Shown here piece after piece: positions 27,327 to 32,461 of a stretch of 34,533 bases of DNA (position 1 is the first letter of the stretch; every line of letters begins with the position of its first letter). Source of the DNA: Methanomassiliicoccaceae archaeon (lineage in GTDB: Archaea > Thermoplasmatota > Thermoplasmata > Methanomassiliicoccales > Methanomethylophilaceae). The translations under genes were made by a program, and so were the position numbers. The notes under the pieces were generated by a model. That model saw only the letters and a list, made by a program, of their open reading frames with translations. It ran no database searches and had not been told where the DNA came from. Location: assembly GCA_031285205.1 (NCBI GenBank), contig JAITWO010000042.1, positions 1 to 34,533 on the forward strand. The letters are read 5' to 3'.

Positions 27327-27345
27327 AGGATACCATAGGGTGCCG

Positions 27346-27984
27346 ATGTTCTGCGGAGTGGATGAGGCAGGCCGCGGGCCGGTGATGGGTCCGCTGGTGG
27401 TCGCTGCTGTTTTTGTTGATGACGATGAATCGTTAAAAAAAATAGGCGTGAAGGATTCAAAGAAACTGTCGCCGGCATCGAGGGAAAGGATGTACGATAT
27501 GATAATCAATGTCGCAGATCACAGGGTGATCATTCTGTCGGCAGAAGAGATCGATTCGGAACGGGAACATCATTCACTGAATGAGATAGAGTTACGGATG
27601 TTCGCCGAGGCCGTTTCAGGAACAGATGTGTCCAGGGTCTACGCGGACTGTCCTGACGTGAATATATCATCATTCTCATCATCCCTGTCACTGATGCTGA
27701 CGGGAACGAAGGTCACGGCGGAGCATAAGGCCGATGACACATACCCGGTGGTATCGGCGGCATCCATAATCGCAAAGGTGACAAGGGACCGCAGGATAGA
27801 GGAAATAGCAAAAGAATTCGGGAGAGATATAGGCAGCGGTTACCCGAGCGACCCCGTGACCGCGGAGTTTATCGCTAAATGGATAAAGGAGAACGGGAAT
27901 CCGCCTCCACATACCCGGCGTTCATGGGAGACGGTCAGGAAGATGATGACCTTACATAAGAACAAAAAGATCACGGACTGGTGA
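27346..27984 (+). CDS. rnhB: ribonuclease HII
   Basis: 212 residues. RNase HII cuts RNA in RNA-DNA hybrids and at single ribonucleotides in DNA. The acidic catalytic residues are visible: GVDEAGRGPVMGP at the N-terminus (Asp and Glu), VYADCPD, and VTRDRR; KDSKKLSP and SAASIIAKV are also conserved. ATG 27346 gives MFCGVDEAGRG. Followed by the SCP2 gene after 4 nt, so the two form a small operon. Confidence 0.94.
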   Translation: MFCGVDEAGRGPVMGPLVVAAVFVDDDESLKKIGVKDSKKLSPASRERMYDMIINVADHRVIILSAEEIDSEREHHSLNEIELRMFAEAVSGTDVSRVYADCPDVNISSFSSSLSLMLTGTKVTAEHKADDTYPVVSAASIIAKVTRDRRIEEIAKEFGRDIGSGYPSDPVTAEFIAKWIKENGNPPPHTRRSWETVRKMMTLHKNKKITDW

Positions 27985-27988
27985 AAAA

Positions 27989-28321
27989 ATGACGATGCAC
28001 GGACCCATTCAGGAAATGATAGACAGATTCCACAGGAAAGTAGAGAGAGATGAGAAGGTCCGTGATAAATTGAACGGCGTCGTGAAAACGATAAACATAG
28101 ACCTCGGGGGCGAATCGTATTCCATGAGGCTCGACAATGCGCACATATACGATTACAAAGAGGGCATGACCGACAGCGCGGACATACTGTTCACATCAAC
28201 GCCCGAGAACCTTAAGAAGATGATAGACGGAGACCTCAGGCCGATGAAGGCATACATCACCAGAAAGTTCACCGTCAAAGGGAAGATAGAGGATCTGATG
28301 CACCTCAAAAGCCTGTTCTGA
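27989..28321 (+). CDS. SCP2 sterol-carrier-type lipid-binding domain protein
   Basis: 110 residues forming a single SCP2 domain: VKTINIDLGGESYSMRLDNA, then TDSADILFTSTPENLKKMIDGDLRPMKAYITRKFTVKGKIEDLMHL, where the G-x-MKA-x3-GK-x-KG-type end is the family hallmark. SCP2 domains bind lipids in a hydrophobic tunnel; in archaea the ligand is unknown and could be a prenyl lipid. GGTGA precedes the ATG, which sits 4 nt after the rnhB stop. Confidence 0.88.
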   Translation: MTMHGPIQEMIDRFHRKVERDEKVRDKLNGVVKTINIDLGGESYSMRLDNAHIYDYKEGMTDSADILFTSTPENLKKMIDGDLRPMKAYITRKFTVKGKIEDLMHLKSLF

Positions 28322-28380: not shown

Positions 28381-28542
28381 ATGTTGACACATATCGCGGT
28401 TTATAAAGGCCCCTCATTATCCTTTCTCCCATCATACGTAAGATGGCATTCAGTAAAAAAGAGCCAGATCTTTGATTTCAATGATCATGCGCGTATTTCT
28501 GTCAACAGCCGCGGACGAAGATACGCGCTATGCAAAATATAA
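28381..28542 (+). CDS. possible 53-residue basic protein
   Basis: An ATG with AAGGGAGG 6 nt upstream (28367-28374), one of the best ribosome sites in the window, opens 53 codons to TAA. The product begins MLTHIAVYKG and is basic (RWHSVKKSQ, SRGRRYALCKI) with one Cys. It fills most of the otherwise empty 248 bases between the SCP2 gene and initiator tRNA, and its stop overlaps the tRNA TATA box. A TATA-like GTTTATAAAGG inside it (about 28399-28409) is a complication. No family recognised. Confidence 0.35.
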   Translation: MLTHIAVYKGPSLSFLPSYVRWHSVKKSQIFDFNDHARISVNSRGRRYALCKI

Positions 28543-28546
28543 ATAC
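28533..28546 (+). promoter_or_regulatory. TATA box of initiator tRNA-Met
   Basis: AAAATATAAATA, centred about 30 bp before the 5' end of the tRNA at 28570. Confidence 0.6.
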
Positions 28547-28569
28547 GACATAGGATTAGGTGCCATCAC

Positions 28570-28647
28570 AGCGAGGTGGGGTAGCCAGGATATCCCGTCG
28601 GGCTCATAACCCGGAGACCGGTCGTTCAAATCGACCCCTCGCTACCA
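28570..28647 (+). tRNA. initiator tRNA-Met (CAU) with encoded CCA
   Basis: The acceptor AGCGAGG pairs with CCTCGCT, so the first pair is A1-U72, the archaeal initiator mark. The anticodon loop CTCATAA (anticodon CAU) is closed by three G-C pairs (GGG/CCC), a second initiator mark. The T-arm is GGTCG-TTCAAAT-CGACC. The 3' end is discriminator A (28644) followed directly by CCA, which the two other tRNA genes in the window lack. Confidence 0.95.
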
Positions 28648-28687
28648 CCTTATCCCACGGTCATGATCCAAACTGTGGCCGAAGGCC

Positions 28688-29449
28688 TCATTCCTTGATC
28701 TTCTCAAGCTTCTTATCCATAATGGATATGTCATTCACGTAGACGTTCTCCGGTTCCTCAAGGTCGTCGAGGCATCCTAACCAGTATACCACAACGCCGG
28801 GTCCGAAGAGGTTGGTGTAAGGTATGAGCTGTTTTTTGGAATTGTACCGGAACTCGGTGTTATCGCCGAACGATGCTTTGCTCTCCACCCAATAGATCTT
28901 CTTGCCGTTGTACATCATCGGTTCGTCCAGCAGGGCATCGGGTGTCTTCTCATAAACGCCTCTGAGGTCCTCTTCGGTCCTGTATTTTATGCCCTGGCCG
29001 TCAAGCCACTGGTGCAAAAGGGATTCGCCCCAGAGTCCCCGCTGCCTCTGCATCTCATTACCTTCCGGCGAGTACACGAGGTCCGCTTTCCGTACCTCCT
29101 TCACCTCATCCCTGACATCCTTGCTCTGGAGGCTGTCCGGTTCGTTTATGTACCCCCAGAACTCCTTCCTTGAGGCGCCGTCCTCCATGAAGATGAACAT
29201 CGCAGTGAGTATCGGAGGGAATTTCCATCTCTCCGCTATCTGTAGCAATGTATGTCCCCTTTTCCAATCCTTTAGCATACGGCCGGTGTTCTGTTTGACC
29301 ACGTAGAACCTTTTCTTGACTTCCCGGGTCATCTTCTGTGTGAATATCGATATCAGCATCTCGCGGTCATACCCCTTGGACGCCATCTTTTCAATGTCCT
29401 TCGAGCCGTTCAATGCATTATATATTGTCTTGTAATCGCTGTACTTCAT
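28688..29449 (-). CDS. CDIN1-type (TPD-motif) nuclease-fold protein
   Basis: 253 residues. The C-terminal half matches the TPD family, whose human member CDIN1 (C15orf41) is mutated in a congenital anaemia. Motifs in order: GLWGESLL (Glu142), the family's name motif KTPDALL (Thr169-Pro170-Asp171), YWVESKASFGD (Glu189-Ser190-Lys191), and FGPGVVVYWLG. Glu142, Asp171 and E-x-K match a PD-(D/E)xK nuclease core. The N-terminal half is helical and may bind nucleic acid. It starts 4 nt after the reductase gene, so they are co-transcribed. The substrate is unknown. Confidence 0.85.
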   Translation of the reverse strand: MKYSDYKTIYNALNGSKDIEKMASKGYDREMLISIFTQKMTREVKKRFYVVKQNTGRMLKDWKRGHTLLQIAERWKFPPILTAMFIFMEDGASRKEFWGYINEPDSLQSKDVRDEVKEVRKADLVYSPEGNEMQRQRGLWGESLLHQWLDGQGIKYRTEEDLRGVYEKTPDALLDEPMMYNGKKIYWVESKASFGDNTEFRYNSKKQLIPYTNLFGPGVVVYWLGCLDDLEEPENVYVNDISIMDKKLEKIKE

Positions 29450-29453
29450 CTGA

Positions 29454-30803
29454 TTACCTGTTCAGGTTGTTGCATAGGTTCTCGGCGGCAGAGATCACAA
29501 CATCCCTTACCATCGATGTCGGCGGGCAGTAGGCGTTCTCTGCACGCTCGAGGAAATCCTCTGCCTTGGTTCCGTTGATTATCGCGTCAGTAAGCCAGTT
29601 TATCCTTCCTGTCGCGTCCTCTCCGGCAACGATCTGAGCACCTATCATGGCGTGCGTGTCCGCATCCGCCATTATCTTCACTATCATCTCCTTGTGGTCG
29701 GGGTAGTACCGGGCCCTCGTGAACCCTTCCGCCCTTCCCGAGACCGTCCGTATGTTGTACCACGCGGCGAGGTTTTCGGAAAGTCCGGTGCCTGCGATAT
29801 GCAGGTCCCCTATCACACTGACCCACGGGCTTGCCACCGCACCCGATGACGCCCTGTCGCCGGCGGCGTTCTTTCCCGCCACGAGCCCCTGTTTCACCGC
29901 GCTTGAACCGAGCTGGCTCATCGTCGGCCCGGATGCTATCGCCGATTCGCACTGAACGACATCGCCGGCAACGAATATATCATCCACCAACACACCGTTC
30001 CTGTAGGGGCGCATCGAAGGCGACACGACAACGGCACCGAGTTTTCCTATGTCAAGGCCGAGCATCTTCGGTACCTCGAGGTTCGCGCGCACACCGGTGG
30101 CGAGTATGACCATATCGCATTCGTATCTTTTTCCGGAGGCGGTGACCCATCTGACCGTATCGCCTCCCTCTATTGACTGTATCGGGGAGCTGAGGACGAA
30201 CTTTATGCCGAAGCGCTCAAGGTGTTTCTGCACAGGCTCCGCCATGTCCTTGTCGGCTATCCTCGGCATGATCTGGTCGAACATCTCGATCGCCGTGACA
30301 TCCTTGCCGCCCTTCCTCACGGACAATGCCATCTCCAACCCGATCACGCCCGCTCCGGCTATGACGACCCTGTTGCAGTCCTTCATCGCGTTCTGTATCT
30401 TCTTCCCGTCGTTTATCGTGCGGACGACGAACACATTCTTCAGACCGACACCGGGAACCGGCGGTCTGAAAACGGCCCCTCCCGTAGCGATCACCAGCGT
30501 ATCGTAATCATACGTCCTCCCGCCGGCGGTGACCTTCTTCGTATTGCCGTCAACCGCGGTGACCTTCGTCATCGTATGGACGGTTATCCCCCTTTCCTCA
30601 GAATAGTAGGATGCGTCATGCATCACGATGTCATTCCATGTCGTCCTCCCCTCAAGGACCCATGGGATAACGCAGGGAGAATACGCTATGTGCTCATCCT
30701 CCGTGAATACGGTGACGGCGGCCCTCGGGTCGGTCCGTTTGGCCGCAGATGCCGCGGTCATCCCGGCGGCGCCTGCACCTATGACAATGATCTTCCTTAC
30801 CAT
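29454..30803 (-). CDS. flavin disulfide reductase, CoA-disulfide reductase/NADH oxidase type
   Basis: 449 residues. FAD-binding GAGAAGMTAAS (about 9-19), a single redox cysteine Cys44 in YSPCVIPW (as in single-Cys CoA-disulfide reductases and NADH oxidases), VIATGGAVFRPPVPG, the NAD(P)H motif GAGVIGLEMA, VILATGVRAN, and DDIFVAGDVV for FAD. The C-terminal dimerisation domain includes the HPTxxE-like region (YCPPTSMVRDVV). It likely reduces CoA disulfide, a persulfide or oxygen. AGGAGG precedes the ATG. It heads a two-gene unit with the CDIN1-type nuclease. Confidence 0.85.
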   Translation of the reverse strand: MVRKIIVIGAGAAGMTAASAAKRTDPRAAVTVFTEDEHIAYSPCVIPWVLEGRTTWNDIVMHDASYYSEERGITVHTMTKVTAVDGNTKKVTAGGRTYDYDTLVIATGGAVFRPPVPGVGLKNVFVVRTINDGKKIQNAMKDCNRVVIAGAGVIGLEMALSVRKGGKDVTAIEMFDQIMPRIADKDMAEPVQKHLERFGIKFVLSSPIQSIEGGDTVRWVTASGKRYECDMVILATGVRANLEVPKMLGLDIGKLGAVVVSPSMRPYRNGVLVDDIFVAGDVVQCESAIASGPTMSQLGSSAVKQGLVAGKNAAGDRASSGAVASPWVSVIGDLHIAGTGLSENLAAWYNIRTVSGRAEGFTRARYYPDHKEMIVKIMADADTHAMIGAQIVAGEDATGRINWLTDAIINGTKAEDFLERAENAYCPPTSMVRDVVISAAENLCNNLNR

Positions 30804-30895
30804 CTTAACCGCCTCCTATGAAACGATGGGATAATAATCTTTTCTAGCGCACGGCAGCATGTGATATATTACTCATATCTGCCACATATGTTCCG

Positions 30896-31621
30896 TCAGA
30901 GTCTCAGGAGGGCCGCTATGGCCTTCTCATGCTTCTGCTTGGCGGCAAGCTGATACCATCTCTTCGCTTCCTTGACATCTTTCTCTACGCCCACTCCTTT
31001 CTCATACATCATCCCGAGATTGTACTGTGCCCCGGTGTTCCCCTGTTCTGCAGACAGCTTGAACCACCTGAGTGCCTCGTAGTGGTCCGCATCGATGCCC
31101 TTACCGTTGGCGTACATCCCTCCCAGGTTGCACTGTGCATCGGCGCTCCCCTGGTCAGCTGCCAGTTTGAACCACCTGAGTGCCTCGTAGTGATCCGCAT
31201 CGATGCCCTTACCGTTGGCGTACATCAGCCCGAGATTGTTCTGTGCGCTCATGTTGCCCTGGTCTGCGGCCAGCCTCCACCACCTGACCGCCTCGGCATC
31301 GCTCTTCTTCACGCCTCTCCCGTTGGCGTACATGTTGCCGAGATTGAGTTGCGCACCGACATTGCCCTGGTCTGCGGCCAGCCTGTACCACCTCACAGCC
31401 TCGGCATCGCTCTTGTTCACGCCCTTCCCGTTGGCGTACATCAGCCCGAGACTGTACTGCGCCCTGTCAAAACCCTTCTCCGCGACCAGCTTGAACCACT
31501 TCAGCGCTTCCCTGTAGTTCTGCGGCACACCGTCGCCGGTATAGTATACACGGCCGAGGGTGTACGCCGCCTGGGGATCCCCATTCTCCGCATAGCCCTT
31601 CAACCTTTCCACATCTGGCAT
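30896..31621 (-). CDS. Sel1-repeat protein
   Basis: 241 residues made almost wholly of 36-residue Sel1 repeats (about six), pattern A-x-Y-x-LG-x-MYANGKGV-x-D-x-EAxRWxRLAADQGN. No signal peptide or membrane helix, so a cytoplasmic scaffold is likely; no enzymatic domain. Two repeats are nearly identical at DNA level (31059-31117 and 31167-31225, one mismatch in 59), a recent duplication. ATG 31621 is 26 bp from the centre of a TATA box (TATAAATA, 31644-31651), thus leaderless. Confidence 0.88.
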   Translation of the reverse strand: MPDVERLKGYAENGDPQAAYTLGRVYYTGDGVPQNYREALKWFKLVAEKGFDRAQYSLGLMYANGKGVNKSDAEAVRWYRLAADQGNVGAQLNLGNMYANGRGVKKSDAEAVRWWRLAADQGNMSAQNNLGLMYANGKGIDADHYEALRWFKLAADQGSADAQCNLGGMYANGKGIDADHYEALRWFKLSAEQGNTGAQYNLGMMYEKGVGVEKDVKEAKRWYQLAAKQKHEKAIAALLRL

Positions 31622-31691: not shown

Positions 31692-32432
31692 TCAGCGCTT
31701 TACTTTATCCATGTTCTGAATGATCGATTTGGCCTTCGAATGACCCTGCTCGGCGGCAAGTTCAAGCAGCACCCTGGCCTCCTCGTGGTCCTTTTCCACG
31801 CCCAGCCCCGACCCATATGCCAGACCGAGGTCGCACAGCGCATCCGCATTACCTTGGTCCGCGGCAAGGTCCCACAGTTTAACGGCCTCCTCGTAGTTCT
31901 GTTCCACGCCGTTCCCTTTGGCATACATCACGCCGAGGCTGTGCTGTGCCTTTGCGCTTCCGCTGTTCGCGGCAAGGCTGTACCACTTGATCGCCTCATC
32001 GAAGCTCTTGGGAACGCCTCTGCCCCTGACGTACATCATACCTATGTTGCACTGTGCGTCCGTGTTCCCCTGATTGGCGGCGAGCGTGAACCATTTCATG
32101 GCCTCTGCCTCGTTCCTCTTCACGCCGTCCCCGTTGCCGTACATCACGCCGAGGTTGCACTGTGCGTCCGTGTTCCCCTGATTGGCGGCGAGCGTGAACC
32201 ATTTTACCGCCTCAGCAAGATCTTTCTTCACACCCGTCCCGTTGACGTACATCAGCCCCATGTTGTACTGTGCACGCACATTTTTCTGGTCGGCGGACAG
32301 CCTCCACCATCTGATCGCTTCCGCAGGGTTCTTCTCCACCCCGTCGCCGTAATAATACATCCGGCCGAGACCGCACTGCGCCTCGGGGTCGCCTGTCTTC
32401 GCAAGCTGTTTGGTCTTTTCGACATCCGTCAT
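31692..32432 (-). CDS. Sel1-repeat protein, paralogue
   Basis: About 246 residues of Sel1 repeats (A-x-C-NLGVMYGNGDGVKRNEAEAMKWFTLAANQGN and variants, about six), ending with a short charged tail (SIIQNMDKVKR). Two repeats share 51 identical bases (32046-32096 and 32154-32204). ATG 32432 (MTDVEKTK) is 26 bp from the centre of the TATA box TATAAATA (32454-32461), identical in place and sequence to that of the neighbour; the longer frame to 32453 starts inside that box. Together they look like a co-regulated pair of interaction scaffolds. Confidence 0.88.
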   Translation of the reverse strand: MTDVEKTKQLAKTGDPEAQCGLGRMYYYGDGVEKNPAEAIRWWRLSADQKNVRAQYNMGLMYVNGTGVKKDLAEAVKWFTLAANQGNTDAQCNLGVMYGNGDGVKRNEAEAMKWFTLAANQGNTDAQCNIGMMYVRGRGVPKSFDEAIKWYSLAANSGSAKAQHSLGVMYAKGNGVEQNYEEAVKLWDLAADQGNADALCDLGLAYGSGLGVEKDHEEARVLLELAAEQGHSKAKSIIQNMDKVKR

Positions 32433-32450
32433 GAATGCGGATGTTGGTTT

Positions 32451-32461
32451 CATTATTTATA
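32451..32461. promoter_or_regulatory. shared TATA element between the second Sel1 gene and the RaSEA-like gene
   Basis: CATTATTTATA. On the minus strand it is TATAAATAATG, 26 bp before ATG 32432. Read to the right, TTATTTATA is centred about 32 bp before ATG 32490, so one AT element could serve both genes. Confidence 0.5.

Follow-up and report, generated by a model that had tools for sequence, protein, structure and literature searches.

A gene for a TPD-family (CDIN1-like) putative PD-(D/E)XK nuclease was found at positions 28688-29449 on the minus strand of the window, i.e., the whole stretch of 34,533 nucleotides that was analysed (contig JAITWO010000042.1 of a Methanomassiliicoccaceae archaeon, a methanogen of the gut, assembly GCA_031285205.1). 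It starts with ATG and encodes a protein of 253 amino acids. We see an even chance that TPD is a vertically inherited core nuclease, metal-dependent and of the PD-(D/E)XK type, that acts on DNA in genome maintenance, whereby both catalysis and the DNA substrate are what we infer. The helical N-terminal half would bind nucleic acid, most likely DNA, and the C-terminal PD-(D/E)XK domain would cleave phosphodiester bonds of the backbone by means of E142, D171, E189 and K191 and of one or two divalent metal ions. TPD would act as a genome-maintenance endonuclease, which would probably be structure-selective, and the link to codanin and to histone chaperones would be a later eukaryotic addition. 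The human relative CDIN1 bears the name of a nuclease, and opinions on its role in disease are divided between an action as a nuclease and the supply of histones. An archaeal TPD protein, being free of any need for codanin, lends itself well to testing whether members of the family cleave nucleic acids, and of which kind.

The TPD domain (PF14811) was located at residues 109-240 (positions 28730-29125, minus strand) by a six-frame Pfam search and by hmmscan, the latter with an E-value of 8.5e-43 and 145.9 bits versus a curated cut-off of 27, and judged by these scores the match is far above chance. PF14811 was also matched by all 55 aligned homologues, and the closest named relatives were Methanomethylophilaceae/Thermoplasmata MAGs with identities of 66% and 62%. 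The claim of the initial annotation that the gene encodes an archaeal homologue of CDIN1 was thus verified. NCBIfam and PHROGs yielded zero matches to the protein, and the RecB/Cas4-type profiles PF12705 and PF01930 were absent among its Pfam matches at E <= 1. A sequence search retrieved no solved relatives, with Card1 appearing only at E 3-4. RmuC was weakly matched by four of the 55 homologues (best 7e-4), and when 10 long homologues were scanned for fused domains, TPD was the sole domain above the cut-off. The protein had also been called small, a description that did not hold, as the median length of the family is 264 amino acids (63 fetched loci). According to the available text of the respective articles, CDIN1 orthologues have been published for Euryarchaeota with a human-archaeal BLAST E-value of 1e-34 (PMC7092493), and CDIN1 relatives occur in archaea and viruses (PMC6519365). 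The existence of archaeal relatives was therefore already published, and the sequence in the window is a new, uncharacterised member.

The three family motifs were present at the positions claimed for them, i.e., KTPDALL at residues 168-174, YWVESKASFGD at residues 186-196, and FGPGVVVYWLG at residues 215-225, and the numbering of D171 and K191 was correct. The conservation of the residues was determined with an alignment of 55 homologues from a single phylum, which are 19-67% identical to the protein of the window; eight of the 63 TPD loci are outside this alignment, namely one partial sequence (L086) and several near-duplicates or ORFs with long extensions (L033, L052, L054, L069, L071, L072, L093). 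The invariant columns were D123, E142, T169, P170, D171, W187, K191, G195, Q207, Y211, G216, G218 and G225. They include the predicted active-site helix glutamate E142 (29024-29026), D171 of the TPD motif T169-P170-D171 as the predicted metal ligand (28937-28939), and K191 of the (D/E)xK element E189-S190-K191 (28877-28885; all on the minus strand). At position 189, 46 of the 55 homologues had E and the other 9 had D, and thus the residue order of PD-(D/E)XK enzymes, a D followed by (D/E)xK, was retained throughout as D171, E/D189 and K191. After the (D/E)xK strand follows the invariant pair Q207-x3-Y211 (28817-28831, minus strand), the spacing of which we take to resemble the QxxxY motif of RecB/Cas4. 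The families with D at position 189 (f29 and f37, which probably represent marine group II) have a divergent form of TPD, and a basic, RG-rich N-terminal tail was present in eight of their nine sequences (L087, L088, L090, L094-L098), while the ninth was masked. Because E142, D171 and K191 were conserved in 55/55 sequences down to 19% identity and residue 189 was always acidic, TPD is predicted to be a nuclease. The suggestion of a plausible PD-(D/E)xK active site was borne out by this residue set and by a confident AlphaFold2 model.

This model had a mean pLDDT of 96.7 and a pTM of 0.89. It comprised an N-terminal half that was all-helical, with helices only at residues 1-123 (29081-29449, minus strand), and an alpha/beta C-terminal half. 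The structure comparison with PD-(D/E)xK nucleases that had been proposed gave a divided result, as Foldseek yielded zero matches to PDB structures at E <= 0.001, whereas the best rows of the VIA structural comparison, which aligned residues about 127-253, were mostly such enzymes acting on DNA. The top row was BsaWI (Z 8.2, rmsd 3.0, 117 aligned), and AF1548 (1y88; Z 7.4, rmsd 3.2, 100 aligned), Can1 (Z 7.3, rmsd 3.8, 112 aligned), PspGI (Z 6.8), FokI (Z 6.7), EndoMS (Z 6.6), EcoT38I and the Hjc structure 1ob9 (Z 4.8, rmsd 4.5, 97 aligned) were also in the row list; as Z values of 5-8 may reflect merely a common arrangement, single rows below Z 8 prove little, and it is the agreement between rows that carries weight. 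All these ranked entries presumably are PD-(D/E)XK enzymes. The predominance of DNA-acting enzymes among the best rows argues for a nuclease that acts on DNA, and the empty Foldseek result argues against it.

Results with the human protein also argue against a DNA nuclease. In the accessible part of PMC7261414, numerous DNA and RNA substrates all withstood CDIN1, whether it was alone or combined with a fragment of codanin-1, and the human complex left Holliday junctions, linear RNA and RNA stem-loops uncut; the accessible part of PMC13370696 (2026) still records no published CDIN1 activity. A search of the open-licence PMC literature found no functional study of an archaeal TPD protein and no activity of any family member. 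The repeated failure to detect an activity of human CDIN1 would be explained if TPD had a nuclease fold and yet were a non-catalytic nucleic-acid-binding or scaffold protein. However, a protein with such a role should have lost the E/D/(E or D)/K set somewhere, and the set was invariant in all 55 archaeal sequences, which makes a non-catalytic role very unlikely.

The distribution of TPD was analysed at three levels. It was present in 57 of 61 genomes of the relatives sample, in 42/42 good genomes (completeness >= 90%, contamination <= 5%) of the order sample, and in 187 of 294 genomes of the phylum. Of the 107 genomes lacking TPD, at least 20 are members of f8, f9 and f10, families that belong to the same class. 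The gene is single copy in nearly all genomes; G276 contains two copies on different contigs (L069 on G276:C24 and L070 on G276:C1). A tree of 54 TPD sequences, from which L089 was left out due to masked letters, recovered seven of nine taxonomic families with a single change, and all groups together required eight changes, which is the minimum. Therefore, as judged from the sequences, the inheritance of TPD is mainly vertical, and the retention in all good genomes of the order together with a tree that follows the taxonomic families argues for a core gene. A mobile or defence gene was also considered and was rejected, as searches for TPD in phages, plasmids, PHROGs and confirmed viral contigs gave zero matches, and PADLOC reported merely a chance-level match to SspF (E 0.048). 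Of the named controls, Methanosarcina acetivorans contained TPD, while M. jannaschii and H. volcanii had no match; the gene is thus present in a laboratory archaeon that is open to genetics.

A similarity of CDIN1 to archaeal resolvases is stated in the available text of PMC7261414, and TPD could accordingly function as a Hjc-type Holliday junction resolvase that is redundant with Hjc. In the families f2, f5 and f6 of the order and f20 of the phylum, all sampled genomes with TPD were devoid of a match to the Hjc profile PF01870, and the same was true for M. acetivorans. However, the genome of the window has a separate Hjc gene (G000:C26:4820-5173), and both genes were found together in 157 of the 187 genomes with TPD, while 30 had TPD without a Hjc match. 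Hjc matches were also missing in 10 of the 107 genomes without TPD, a count obtained by subtraction, assuming that both counts cover one and the same set of 294 genomes, and the difference between genomes with and without TPD was not significant (Fisher p 0.12). When only good genomes were compared, Hjc was absent from 21/108 genomes with TPD versus 4/70 without (Fisher p 0.014), with the counts 21 and 4 taken by hand from the completeness values listed and related genomes treated as independent; this split is compatible with a partial overlap in DNA processing, although it does not prove one. Hjc belongs to the same PD-(D/E)XK superfamily, and in a profile-profile comparison the ExK motif region aligned locally with TPD. 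The probability of that match was, however, just 0.3%, PF01870 was absent among the Pfam matches of the TPD protein at E <= 1, and the Z of 4.8 for 1ob9 and the failure of the human complex to cut Holliday junctions also speak against a resolvase. A replacement of Hjc by TPD was rejected, as the two genes are not exclusive. Because most genomes with TPD also have a distinct Hjc gene, TPD is not simply identical with that resolvase, and we consider a redundant function of this type quite unlikely.

The gene context was inspected next to the distribution. Directly upstream of TPD a pyridine nucleotide-disulphide oxidoreductase gene is located on the same strand (29454-30803, minus; PF07992 E 6.1e-57), and only 4 bases separate its end from the TPD start codon. 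The protein is CoA-disulphide-reductase-like, with a TIGR03385 match at E 1e-91 that is yet under the cut-off of that profile. The two-gene unit noted in the initial annotation therefore exists. The oxidoreductase gene was next to TPD in 15/15 loci of the window's family, the Methanomethylophilaceae (14 via ORF selection and L033 via tblastn), versus 0/48 loci elsewhere. Since the neighbour is confined to one family, the unit is a local arrangement that is silent on function. Further upstream, two adjacent genes for Sel1-like repeat proteins are present (30896-31621 and 31692-32453, both minus), the former with six Sel1 repeats according to Pfam and the latter alike by sequence look. On the other side, a gene for RNase HII (27340-27984, plus) is followed by a small SCP2-like gene (27989-28321, plus), and this pair is near TPD in further members of the window's family too. 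Between the end of a tRNA-Met(CAT) gene (about 28570-28650, plus) and the stop codon of TPD the distance is 41 bases; a general link to tRNA was rejected, as tRNA-Met(CAT) was at most 400 bp from TPD in just 5 of 63 loci, all of the window's family. A promoter scan of positions 28400-31000 revealed nothing above chance, and a terminator scan of the same region gave four weak candidate sites, none of them on the TPD strand.

In most of the order outside the window's family, and also in f11, TPD is adjoined by a gene for a Cas4-like membrane protein, for which L055:9389-10378 (plus) and L056:7784-8818 (minus) are examples, with 9 others in alignment A3. This protein has Cas4-like and PDDEXK_1 Pfam matches, four invariant Cys and, before the nuclease core, stretches of hydrophobic residues as are usual for some four membrane helices; its AlphaFold2 model was moderate (pLDDT 74.9). 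A manual comparison of the coordinates showed that in 24/24 relatives carrying both genes it is the next gene 3′ of TPD, in the same orientation, and a 25th carrier, G046, had no TPD match. Such an adjacency would fit a DNA-degrading pair at the membrane, formed by TPD and a membrane-anchored Cas4-like iron-sulphur nuclease. Yet the gene is missing from the genome of the window, and it is found in 185/294 genomes of the phylum, including the families f8, f9, f10, f19 and f28, for which no TPD is among the matches listed. In other genomes with TPD it is distant, e.g., about 1.5 Mb away on the same contig in G073. A profile-profile comparison of the two proteins gave 0.1% probability. The adjacency thus holds in the order and fails phylum-wide, a general pair was rejected, and a joint function at the membrane is extremely improbable.

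Other families had LeuRS (marine families), ABCE1 (f22 and f30) or a GHMP kinase as neighbours of TPD, and no neighbour, repair genes included, was conserved phylum-wide among the 63 TPD loci. The gene context is therefore uninformative on the function of TPD, and the lack of a phylum-wide repair-gene neighbour counts against a DNA nuclease. Some PD-(D/E)XK domains cut RNA, and an RNA substrate would fit the RG-rich tails of the marine sequences and the LeuRS and ABCE1 neighbours as well. The leading rival explanation, which we regard as unlikely, is thus that TPD is an enzyme that cleaves or processes RNA, with the basic, G-rich tail of the marine branch tethering RNA. The resemblance of codanin-1 to the CNOT1 scaffold of mRNA decay, which is reported in the accessible part of PMC7092493, points in the same direction. 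On the other hand, the structural neighbours are mostly DNA enzymes, the gene neighbours vary between families, and the RNA substrates offered to the human complex remained uncut. A nuclease that acts on DNA in genome maintenance is still the preferred reading.

In humans, CDIN1 is connected with codanin-1 and histone supply, and codanin-1 and histones were both searched for in archaea. Histones (PF00808) were found in 17 of 294 genomes, i.e., in 10/187 with TPD and 7/107 without, and a histone link was rejected; TPD and histones are uncoupled. A PF00808 histone was not found in the genome of the window (87% complete), and the controls M. jannaschii and H. volcanii had a histone and no TPD match. 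The available text of PMC4153887 and PMC7613761 places a histone loss at the base of the branch that includes the Methanomethylophilaceae, and according to that of PMC7613761 this family has no known nucleoid proteins at all. Codanin-1 (PF15296) was over the cut-off in 0/41 genomes, in a scan without a eukaryotic positive control, and a single sub-threshold match (E 0.06) contained an internal stop. As a lineage devoid of histones and of a recognisable codanin has retained TPD, the ancestral role of the protein cannot require either, and in this branch that role cannot consist of handling histones in the way the CDAN1-ASF1 complex does. It had been suggested that the archaeal protein could reveal the ancestral role; this value is upheld by the retention of TPD in such a lineage, while the argument drawn from the two-gene unit falls. 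We give somewhat less than an even chance to the wider proposal that the ancestor of CDIN1 was an ancient nuclease of genome maintenance that worked independently of chromatin and the catalytic site of which is strictly selected in archaea without histones and, in the window's family, without known nucleoid proteins. Nuclease activity would then be the old function, and the tie to codanin, ASF1 and histones would be a late eukaryotic harness. Taken together, the new results are the invariance of the site, the near-universal retention in a histone-free order, the lack of a recognisable codanin, and the local nature of the two-gene unit.

Among solved structures, AF1548, BsaWI, PspGI, Can1/Can2 and EndoMS have the folds nearest to residues about 127-253 (Z 6.6-8.2), and their identity to TPD is 9-17% over about 100 residues. 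TPD is not confined to cellular genomes, as relatives in giant viruses are present in the BFVD structure library, where the entry A0A8F8SNR0 matched the TPD model with a Foldseek E-value of 4.3e-14. Similar predicted folds were found for A0A167RJG3 of Powai lake megavirus (E 4.8e-9) and for A0A2L2DJP4 of A. polyphaga mimivirus (E 1.0e-7), which is annotated as 'CDAN1-interacting nuclease 1'; the two proteins have 18-19% identity to the protein of the window. The hosts of both viruses presumably are amoebae. In contrast to human CDIN1, the protein of the window resides in an archaeal host with no histone found in its genome and no recognisable codanin-1. The human protein C15orf41/CDIN1 is itself a member of the TPD family, and the two share a TPD domain in the C-terminal half, at residues 135-265 of CDIN1 according to the available text of PMC6077826, and a helical N-terminal half, for which helix-turn-helix domains have been assigned to the human protein (PMC7261414, accessible part). 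Judged by the motif, D196 of human CDIN1, which is named in the same article, probably corresponds to D171 of the archaeal protein.
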